64,000 bases of DNA. It comes from Magnetospirillum gryphiswaldense MSR-1 v2. GTDB taxonomy: Bacteria; Pseudomonadota; Alphaproteobacteria; Rhodospirillales; Magnetospirillaceae. Positions 1-2,942 of this stretch are shown piece after piece. The stretch lies in assembly GCF_000513295.1 (NCBI RefSeq), contig NC_023065.1:1550001-1614000 (forward strand). Direction: 5' to 3'. The position numbers and the translations under genes are program-made. Below the pieces are notes generated by a model. It was given only the letters and a program-made list of their open reading frames with translations. It searched no databases and was not told where the DNA came from. Every line of letters starts with the position of its first letter. Position 1 is the first letter of the stretch.

Positions 1-229
1 TTCTTGGGGTTCGGGGACGAAACCGGCGGCGACAAGAATGGAGGAAGAACGTTTGGGGGCCGTTCTTCCTCCTGAAGTTTTCCGCTGCACTGGGGTTCGG
101 GGACGTGACAGGCGGAAAACCCCATGGGCATCGGGGATGAGAGAGGCCCCGTTGGGGGACGGAACCTCTCTCGAACGCTTGTTTCCGGCTTTGGGGTTCG
201 GGGACAGACGGAAACAAACGATGGAAATT
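1..229. repeat. tandem array of hairpins with a conserved loop and different stems
   Basis: No gene is present. Five consecutive inverted repeats are visible, alternating between a long and a short G-rich loop on the plus strand. H1: loop TTGGGGTTCGGGGAC at 4-18, closed by TTC (1-3) and GAA (19-21), with its left arm cut by the window edge. H2: 12-bp stem 40-51/61-72, loop TTTGGGGGC. H3: 9-bp stem 77-85/112-120 plus CAC/GTG closing loop 91-104, TGGGGTTCGGGGAC. H4: 8-bp stem 139-146/165-172 plus CCGT/ACGG around TGGGGG. H5: 9-bp stem 179-187/209-217 plus CT/AG closing loop 191-205. A decayed loop copy lies at 125-138. Stems differ but stay complementary, which suggests selected RNA (or single-strand DNA) structure. 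Read on the minus strand this would be the 3' trailer of the kinase ending at 230, with CCCC loops. Function unknown. Confidence 0.8.
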
Positions 230-1960
230 CTATTCGGCGGCCTTCACCTCCCCGTCCACCACGGTCAGGCGCAACGGCTTGCGTCGGGGCAAGGAAAAGC
301 TGAAGGTGCTGCCTTCGCCCAAAGTACTGTCCACCCAGACCTTGCCGCCCATGTGCTCGACCATGCGGCGCACGATGGCCAGACCGATGCCGGTGCCGCC
401 GCCGTCGATACCTTCGAGACGGTGGAAAATTTCAAACAGCCGGATACGGTCGCGCGGATCGATGCCGGCACCGTTGTCGCGCACCGAAAACACCAGGCAA
501 TCGCCTTCGCTGCGGGCACTGACATGGATCAGCGGCTTGCGACTTTCGCAGCGATAGCGGATGGAATTGTCCAAAAGCTGGGTGAAAATCTCGGCCAGCG
601 CCCGTTCATCGACCAGGGCCGAAGGCAGCGGATCGACCACGATCGTGGCGCCGGTGCTGCGAATCTGGTCGGCGAGCCGATCCATGGCGGTGGACACGGC
701 GGTGGACACCGCCACCTCGCCATCACAATCGGGAATTTGGTCGACGGCGACAAAGGCTTCCAGATCCTTCACCAGCTTGCGCATGCGCTGGGCGCCGTCA
801 ACCACGTGGGCGACATAGCCGCGCCCCTCATCGTCTAGGGCCGAGGCCACGTGACTGGACAGCAACTGGGCATAGGCGACCACCCGGCGCAACGGTTCCT
901 GAAGATCGTGGGCGGCGACCTCGGCGATACGTTCCAGATCGGCGACATAACGGCGCAAACGGACACGGCTGGCCAGCAATTCCGCTTTTTTCACCGCCAG
1001 ATCGGCAGCAATGCCTTCCTGCGCCCGGACCATGCGGTAAAGCGCGATCAGGGCGGCGCCCAAGGCCAAGGTCACAGCCGCGCCGATCAAGAGATGCCAC
1101 GTGACCGAACGGTCATAGACGGCCATGGCCTCGACCTTCGAACGACCGACCAAGACCGAAAGCGGCACATTGGGCAGCGGACGCAGGCTGCTGATGCGGT
1201 CGATACCGTCCAGCGGACCATTGCTTTCCAGCGTCGTCGCTTCCTGCCGGCGCACCGCTTCCAAGATGGCGCCGCCTTGCAGGCTTTTCCCCAGAAAGCC
1301 GCCACCGCCATGAGAGGCGACGCGAACCACACCGTCAGTACCGATGACGGCAATGGCACCGTTTTCACCCACATCAATGGAGCCGTAAATGTCGCCCAGA
1401 TAATTGGGATCAAGGGAAACCACCAACACACCGGCGAAATTGCCATGGCCGTCTTCAAGCCGGCGGGTCAACTGGATCGACCACTTGCCCGAAGCCCGGC
1501 CCAGCACCGGCTTGCTGATGAACAACTCGTCCTTGACAGCGGCTTTGTGGACGCGGAAATGCTCGCGGTCCGACAAATCCATGTGCGTAAATCCCGGCAC
1601 GTTGCTGTCGGCCAGCATACCGTCGGCATCGATGCGGGCGATCTGCACCGAAACCCGCTTCAGGATGACATTGTTGGCCACCGACCGATTGAGGTCGAAA
1701 CGATCGGGCGCCTGCTGAAACTCGGCCCGCAAATAAAGCAGGGTCTGGTCCAGGCCGGCTATGGTACGCTGAATGTGTTCGTCAAAGGCACGGGCCAGAT
1801 TGGCGGTGTCGGCACGGGTATCGGCCAGCACACGGGTGCGTTCCGAACTCAGGCTGGCATAGATGGCCACCCACACCATGACCAGCAGCGCCGCGCCAAA
1901 CCAAGCGACGGCCCGCGCTGCCCGCAATTTCACCGCGCCCACGGGGGTGGCGGCAATCAT
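230..1960 (-). CDS. membrane sensor histidine kinase with periplasmic Cache domain
   Basis: A 576-residue inner-membrane histidine kinase. Membrane segments at about 15-37 and 287-309 enclose a double-Cache-like periplasmic sensor (about 45-280). The cytoplasmic part has a HisKA domain with the phospho-acceptor His351 in VAAHDLQEPLRR, and an ATPase domain with Asn465, DNGAGI (495-500) and GGTGIGLAI (521-529). An in-frame start 23 codons upstream exists, but this ATG is preceded by a G-rich Shine-Dalgarno stretch and puts the first membrane helix near the N-terminus. It is divergent from the TorR-like regulator at 2229, the obvious candidate partner. The ligand is not predictable; Cache sensors commonly bind small organic ligands. 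Its 3' flank is the hairpin array at 1-229. Confidence 0.9.
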   Translation of the reverse strand: MIAATPVGAVKLRAARAVAWFGAALLVMVWVAIYASLSSERTRVLADTRADTANLARAFDEHIQRTIAGLDQTLLYLRAEFQQAPDRFDLNRSVANNVILKRVSVQIARIDADGMLADSNVPGFTHMDLSDREHFRVHKAAVKDELFISKPVLGRASGKWSIQLTRRLEDGHGNFAGVLVVSLDPNYLGDIYGSIDVGENGAIAVIGTDGVVRVASHGGGGFLGKSLQGGAILEAVRRQEATTLESNGPLDGIDRISSLRPLPNVPLSVLVGRSKVEAMAVYDRSVTWHLLIGAAVTLALGAALIALYRMVRAQEGIAADLAVKKAELLASRVRLRRYVADLERIAEVAAHDLQEPLRRVVAYAQLLSSHVASALDDEGRGYVAHVVDGAQRMRKLVKDLEAFVAVDQIPDCDGEVAVSTAVSTAMDRLADQIRSTGATIVVDPLPSALVDERALAEIFTQLLDNSIRYRCESRKPLIHVSARSEGDCLVFSVRDNGAGIDPRDRIRLFEIFHRLEGIDGGGTGIGLAIVRRMVEHMGGKVWVDSTLGEGSTFSFSLPRRKPLRLTVVDGEVKAAE

Positions 1961-2164
1961 AGCCACCCCCCCCGAGGACGCGAGGCCGCCGCCCTGGCCC
2001 CGGCTTTGAAGCCAAGAACCAACGCCCATCCCTGTGCGGCGGCGGCCATCCCGTAAAGGCGGGAAACTGCACTGTGGTCGATACGCGTGGACATCGTCAC
2101 GCTGGACCTCCTCAATTCGTGGGTTTACTTATAACTGCCCCCTTTCAATGGAATATCGGGTGTG

Positions 2165-2228: not shown

Positions 2229-2942
2229 ATGGTGAACGCCCCAGTCAAAGCGCATGTCCTGATCGTTGAAGACGAACCGGTGACCCGTGCCAAACTGGCG
2301 GCGCATCTGATCTCGGAAGGTTTTCAGGTCAGCGAGGCCGCCGACGCCCGCGACATGCGCACCATCGTCTCGCGCACCATCCCTGATGTGGTCTTGCTGG
2401 ATATCAATCTGCCCGACGAAAGCGGCCTGATCCTGGCCCGTGACCTCAGGGCCAAGTCGTCGGTGGGCATCATCCTGGTCACTGCCCGCCAGGACGAGAC
2501 CGACCGTATCGTCGGCCTGGAACTGGGGGCCGACGATTACATCACCAAACCGTTCAACGCCCGCGAACTGGCGGTGCGGGTGCGCAACCTGATCCGTCGC
2601 GTCGCCCCCAGCATGGCGGCCGAGCGTCAGGCCAGCGGCGTCTATACCTTTTCCGGCTGGAAATTGGATTGCGACGCCCGCCAACTGATTTCGCCCGAGA
2701 GCGAGGCGGTGCGGCTGACCCGGGGCGAGTTCGACGTGCTGGCGGCCCTGGCCCGCAATGCCGGACGCGCCCTGACCCGCGACCAGTTGCTGGACCTGAC
2801 CCAGCATGACGGCGAAGCGGTGATCGACCGCACCATCGACGTGCTGGTCGGTCGTCTGCGCCGCAAGATCGAGGCCGATCCCAAGCATCCGGCGATCATC
2901 GTCACCGTGCACGGCATCGGCTATCGGCTGGCCGGAAGCTGA
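2229..2942 (+). CDS. OmpR/PhoB-family response regulator, TorR-like
   Basis: A 237-residue two-domain DNA-binding response regulator. The receiver domain (about 8-120) has the acidic pair in VEDEP, phospho-acceptor Asp58 (VVLLDINLPDE) and Lys107 (YITKPFN). A winged-helix effector domain follows (about 140-235) with the usual C-terminal HGIGYRL signature. Stretches such as LIVEDEPVTR, LLDINLPDESGL and VGIILVTAR closely resemble E. coli TorR as I recall it, so it belongs in that subgroup, but no TMAO reductase genes are nearby and the target genes are unknown. The start ATG has the Shine-Dalgarno GGAGAG seven bases upstream. Divergent from the Cache histidine kinase, its likely cognate sensor. 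Confidence 0.9.
   Translation: MVNAPVKAHVLIVEDEPVTRAKLAAHLISEGFQVSEAADARDMRTIVSRTIPDVVLLDINLPDESGLILARDLRAKSSVGIILVTARQDETDRIVGLELGADDYITKPFNARELAVRVRNLIRRVAPSMAAERQASGVYTFSGWKLDCDARQLISPESEAVRLTRGEFDVLAALARNAGRALTRDQLLDLTQHDGEAVIDRTIDVLVGRLRRKIEADPKHPAIIVTVHGIGYRLAGS

Follow-up and report, generated by a model that had tools for sequence, protein, structure and literature searches.

The left end of a 64,000-nucleotide (nt) stretch of the Magnetospirillum gryphiswaldense MSR-1 genome carries, on its minus strand, three copies of one module of ~82 nt. We refer to the whole stretch (G000:C1:1550001-1614000) as the window; G000:C1 is the MSR-1 contig, and relative genomes and their loci are labelled G### and L###. 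The array is complete and consists of six hairpins in which long and short loops alternate, each module being made of a long-loop hairpin ([G/A]UCCCCGAACCCC) and a short-loop hairpin (CCCC(C)AA). Since the loops hardly change while the stems are rewritten between species, the array points to a little-studied regulatory RNA acting through its loops. By analogy with known RNAs, we hold with moderate confidence that it is a small-RNA array whose C-rich loops would pair with G-rich translation-initiation sites. The hairpins, in minus-strand order, are as follows.

176-220, minus strand: module 1 long-loop hairpin, with the minus-strand loop GUCCCCGAACCCCAA
139-172, minus strand: module 1 short-loop hairpin, with the loop CCCCCA in a stem of 14 base pairs (bp)
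76-121, minus strand: module 2 long-loop hairpin, with the loop GUCCCCGAACCCCA
40-72, minus strand: module 2 short-loop hairpin, with the loop GCCCCCAAA in a 12-bp stem that is 100% complementary
1-35 plus the 15 bases left of base 1 (G000:C1:1549986-1550035), minus strand: module 3 long-loop hairpin
G000:C1:1549951-1549984, wholly outside the window, minus strand: module 3 short-loop, terminator-like hairpin

An initial annotation, made from the window alone, had described alternating long- and short-loop hairpins at this end, and these are real: the loops are constant, the stems differ and the folding exceeds that of shuffled sequence. The TGGGGTTCGGGGAC loop lies at window positions 5-18, 91-104 and 192-205, with no other exact copy in the 4,365,796-base genome. 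The annotation had also predicted the bases left of the window. The DNA there ends in GCTGCCTGCCGCCGGT, which together with TTC at 1-3 makes a perfect 12-bp stem, GCCGCCGGTTTC/GAAACCGGCGGC; the predicted letters are correct over the nine bases adjoining base 1, and the outer bases pair with a bulge instead. Its suggestion that the array may be much longer does not hold, as one further short-loop hairpin left of base 1 ends it, 50 nt beyond the window. This last hairpin has UUU at the end of its stem, followed by AUUUUU. What had been taken for a decayed loop copy at 125-138 is a linker, and by eye a similar stretch occurs only in L018 among the arrays inspected.

Folding of the whole array (L004 3940-4225) as minus-strand RNA gives -149.1 kcal/mol and z -12.06, and none of 200 shuffles is as stable; its minimum free energy structure equals the centroid structure and leaves the C-rich loops open. 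The plus strand of the same stretch reaches z -3.94, again with 0/200 shuffles as stable. For window positions 1-260 alone the values are z -6.82 on the minus strand and z -1.75 on the plus strand, where 11 of 200 shuffles were as stable. The minus strand is the more stable one in 63/70 modules.

These 70 modules come from 29 genomes and show 64 distinct left arms. Among them [GA]TCCCCGAACCCC is found in 61 long loops, and CCCC(C)AA in 68 short loops with CCCC(C)A in the remaining two, counts that are favoured by the fact that the modules were collected by loop patterns. A covariance model, R1, built from 41 modules of 14 genomes, gives the same module number per genome as the loop patterns except in G006, for which it scores a fourth site, weakly and away from the array; on inspection this was no convincing module. 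CCCC(C/G)AA is common to long and short loops, and the AA between the C runs is invariant in the 41 modules. The runs themselves are mostly of four or five C, with six in module 2 of G010.

The stems behave differently from the loops. In an arm-swap test, which is independent of any alignment, the native long-stem arms of the 41 modules paired with a mean of -23.9 kcal/mol. This compares with -11.1 when arms were swapped with other module positions and -13.1 when they came from the same position in other genomes. Native pairing was better than with every arm from other positions in 32 of the 41 modules; in the other nine, one to four of 27-28 swaps equalled it. All 16 modelled pairs show changes on both sides (69 modules, 67 distinct; 83.0% of cells paired), a count that uses a model-fitted alignment and so leans towards the model's own structure. 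Covariation scores 0.600 there, compared with 0.261 for shuffled and 0.206-0.331 for slid alignments. RNAalifold on a first alignment returned five pairs only, all in the short stem, because the aligner sets the stems out of register. Homologous arrays with compensatory stem changes thus exist, and selection for structure, which had been proposed from the five hairpins visible in the window, is borne out by these changes together with the constant loops. Since the open loops are constant and the stems are free to change, we take the loops to be the acting part and the stems their support.

The module was then traced among relatives. Its 13-base loop core, GTCCCCGAACCCC, occurs in 22 of 61 near genomes, including all 12 other members of the genus; matches in G014, G019, G034, G040, G042, G045 and G056 are chance, being single copies without matching arms. 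R1 finds the module in 29/55 family genomes, in one to three copies. All 13 genus genomes have an array, of three modules each except for two in G007; G013 has three modules and G021 one, and in genus g7 two modules each are carried by 14 of 17 genomes. In an order sample 33/297 genomes match R1, including four weak matches (25.7-29.2 bits) from outside the family that proved on inspection to be no convincing modules. A class sample (E <= 0.01) gave matches in 16/385, namely the MSR-1 genome and 15 weak ones (21.5-29.4 bits). As far as R1 and its filters see, the module family appears so far to be confined to the Magnetospirillum group; in the large samples the filters were stricter and few candidates were scored per genome, and distant relatives may be missed there.

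A model of the short hairpin alone gave 35 matches in 37 genomes, all of them inside arrays. With 44 modules known in these genomes, the short hairpin is no common terminator of theirs within the model's sensitivity (35/44). A lone short hairpin was seen in G046, from another family of the order (L069 902-1090), its loop being CCCCCAAA and its stem GGAAGGCAGGGACG; it is possibly a distant or an unrelated copy of the short-loop hairpin.

The array has a constant genetic partner in the adjoining two-component system. Its genes, the repeats between them and the element on the other side of the array are listed here.

230-2029, minus strand: sensor histidine kinase gene (HisKA, HATPase_c, dCache-like sensor), start codon uncertain
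2229-2942, plus strand: OmpR-type, TorR-like response regulator gene (Response_reg and Trans_reg_C), divergent from the kinase gene
2173-2205, no strand assigned: three 11-base direct repeats found by eye in the kinase-regulator gap, TGTTTACATGT-TGTTGACATCG-TGTTTCACACG on the minus strand
L004 1373-3786, left of the array, no strand assigned: IS66 element with three open frames (Pfam)

Module 1 begins 9 nt after the kinase stop codon. For the regulator, TorR is the nearest NCBI model (257 bits, under the cut-off of 275). Close orthologs, at 83-100% identity and with only part of the gene in G353, are present in 32/55 family genomes. An array is found in 29 of these 32 and in none of the 23 genomes without the regulator. 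Array and regulator share one contig, no more than about 2.1 kb apart, in 28 of the 29, and are on separate contigs in G009. A kinase lies between them in 8 of 10 loci compared by blastp; there is none in G007 (two modules) and G021 (one module), where the array is directly divergent from the regulator gene. Even with the kinase missing, the module therefore keeps its place beside the regulator. In G353 the regulator gene is split over two reading frames (L073 4619-5301), and R1 finds the two-module array of this genome.

The 11-base repeats are a candidate binding site for the regulator, which, to judge from the sequence, may bind there and drive the array. GTTTACA, on either strand, occurs in 19 of the 27 regulator upstream regions read (30 given). 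On the far side of the array, the closest IS66 open frame lies ~165 bases beyond the last hairpin, and blastp with the IS66 proteins gave no reported match in ten relative array loci. Near two arrays there are strong matches to the COG3860 RNA of Rfam (L017 2436-2489, 75.7 bits; L025 705-758, 73.9 bits; cut-off 42.5).

How might such an array work? We propose that transcription of the minus strand would run through the histidine kinase and on into the array as the last part of the operon, and that this tail would be processed into, or serve as, up to three copies of the ~82-nt module. The stems would be scaffolds that hold the loops open, presenting UCCCCGAACCCCA on the long-loop hairpin and CCCC(C)AA on the short one. 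These loops would pair with G-rich initiation stretches of several messenger RNAs (mRNAs) and block them, as the 6C/B11 and cuckoo/CcsR RNAs do. The array would respond to the signal of the adjoining two-component system. The idea that the minus strand forms the trailer of the kinase, and that its C-rich loops could meet ribosome sites rich in G, had been put forward from the window alone and is supported. The last short hairpin is terminator-like in several genomes.

Several observations weigh against this proposal. A clear U tract follows the last hairpin in only part of the genomes. Exact matches to GGGGTTCGGGG, the complement of the loop core, number 82 in the 13 genus genomes, of which arrays hold 29; the other 53 are no more than the 53 of a reversed control. 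No conserved long target emerged when the 53 surroundings were compared (blastn E <= 1e-10), in a search confined to long targets. Between the C runs the GAA hardly ever varies, a degree of conservation that plain Shine-Dalgarno pairing would not require. G349, G350 and G355 have the regulator and the kinase without an array. The folding of the plus strand beyond its own shuffles counts here too. Finally, the transcriptome table of PMC9549626, which very likely lists this site under another name (see below), gives no transcription start for its entry, as would fit a processed trailer or a silent locus.

Among the 53 non-array surroundings, recurrence was seen only as four cross-genome pairs and one dispersed repeat. 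Each of the 53 sites falls within a stop-to-stop frame of 80 codons or more, which carries little weight in GC-rich DNA. The dispersed repeat is intergenic-looking, about 116-124 bases long and matched in 7/13 genus genomes, with 16 matches in G001; its copies in L254, L257, L259 and L261 (around base 700) were picked because they hold GGGGTTCGGGG. As a general target it was rejected, having no match in the MSR-1 genome.

The same results bear on a different mode of action, in which the repeated CCCC(N)A(A) loops dock an RNA-binding protein or a G-rich small RNA (sRNA) and soak it up. A short motif repeated in open loops (two per long, one per short) and present in one to three modules per genome would suit such titration, as would the invariant AA and the lack of excess of long mRNA complements (53 vs 53). 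There is a precedent in the Caulobacter sponge RNA CrfA, which according to PMC12559287 acts on four sRNAs with an anti-Shine-Dalgarno motif. However, no candidate protein or sRNA was found, in a search that covered CsrA only and gave no match, and G021 manages with a single module; titration is a possible but doubtful alternative. A fuller version, in which the modules are a new RNA family of the Magnetospirillum group that forms the RNA output of the TorR-like system and titrates a protein or sRNA, the module number setting the dose, is tentative in the same way, and we would not rate it as likely. The natural series of none, one, two or three modules beside the same regulator offers a ready dose test.

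It is improbable that the hairpins serve purely as a trailer that ends and protects the kinase transcript, without acting in trans. Their position 9 nt after the kinase stop codon and the terminator-like last hairpin of the MSR-1 genome would agree with this role, but conserved loops on drifting stems are the opposite of what a stabiliser needs. The module also persists without a kinase in G007 and G021, and three modules are many for one end. The short-hairpin model, of limited reach (35 of 44 known modules recovered), had no match outside arrays. Still less probable is an RNA or DNA element on the plus strand, whose GGGG loops would form a CsrA/RsmA sponge, as the initial annotation had speculated, or a G-quadruplex. 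GGGGTTCGGGG does run on that strand, which folds beyond its own shuffles as given above. Against it, stability favours the minus strand in 63/70 modules and over the whole array, and the CsrA family (PF02599, E <= 0.001) has no match in the MSR-1 genome, the same search matching 3/14 control genomes including E. coli. A repeated peptide encoded by the loops is highly improbable: a minus-strand open frame of 72 codons does cross the array, but the module spacing of 83-110 nt runs through all three frames (remainders 0, 1 and 2 in 11, 13 and 17 of 41) and the changes are in the stems and compensating.

We now return to the preferred reading, loops pairing with initiation sites, and compare the array with known RNAs. 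No Rfam family matched the window at gathering scores. Among the closest known systems is BjrC80 (RF02354, a Bradyrhizobiaceae sRNA), which has the same order of a long hairpin, a short G/C hairpin, a long hairpin and a terminator with a CCCC loop. Positions 1-162 of its model align over modules 2 and 3 at 43.5 bits (C1:1549947-1550127, the sole match in the MSR-1 genome). The gathering score of 80 is reached by no match: six of 14 other array loci score 28.4-41.5 bits at E <= 1, and none of 289 class genomes is over the cut-off. The loop parts also differ, with 7, 3 and 2 model positions against 13, 11 and 12 bases in the array, in a comparison by length.

Table 1 of PMC9549626 (2022) lists a 'BjrC80 sRNA' of 181 nt on the minus strand at 43.4 bits, its function given as so far unknown and its place as upstream of hypothetical proteins. 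Because size, strand and score agree (the score within 0.1 bit), this entry is very likely the array site in another assembly. The coordinate offset to that paper differs between the BjrC80 and TPP sites, so the assemblies differ, and the next frames in the present assembly are those of IS66 where the paper has hypothetical proteins as neighbours. The locus has thus very likely drawn notice already, as a member of a family whose threshold the array misses. Beyond that entry, no paper listed by the literature searches was recognisable as treating this array, how it is conserved or how it is tied to the regulator. What had been a database match under threshold is now a defined RNA family that covaries and keeps a constant genetic partner, in a magnetotactic model group.

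The 6C RNA belongs to another phylum and is defined by two hairpins that have six-C runs in their loops. The array module has two hairpins with C-rich loops, its runs being mostly of four or five C as noted above, and the 6C family (RF01066) gives a full-length alignment to module 1. This alignment scores 25.2 bits, where the gathering score is 47, with E 1.2, which is chance level, and unlike 6C the long loop of the array has two C4 runs split by GAA. In B11 (the mycobacterial 6C RNA) either C-rich loop alone represses a target with a tract of six G, according to PMC10470900. In 14 other array loci RF01066 matched nothing at E <= 1.

RNAs of the SmelA075/CcsR type are known as 'cuckoo' RNAs, RS0680 (RS0680a) being CcsR; they are stress-induced and processed, and block ribosome-binding sites. 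The alphaproteobacterial SmelA075 and SmelA099 of rhizobia consist of several hairpins with a common C-rich loop, drifting stems and varying module number, and their loops are anti-Shine-Dalgarno (PMC3927594, section 2.7). The initial annotation knew of no named family with the layout of the array. In plan this overlooked SmelA075/SmelA099, whose multiple hairpin modules with a conserved loop and variable stems the array shares; in loop motif it stands, as theirs differs. The cuckoo motif, CCUCCUCCC (PMC3927594), occurs in 0/70 modules, as does CCTCCTCCC; the array has UCCCCGAACCCC and CCCC(C)AA, on two alternating types of loop. The gene before the array is the kinase, or none in two genomes, whereas CcsR1-4 of Rhodobacter sphaeroides are processed from the 3' untranslated region of ccaF1 (PMC8625941). 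With its 6C score at chance level and no cuckoo motif, the array does not qualify for either family, and the best explanation by analogy is that it nevertheless works like the cuckoo/CcsR and 6C RNAs. It brings a second loop motif to the plan of constant loop, free stem and variable module number, and lets one ask what such loops bind.
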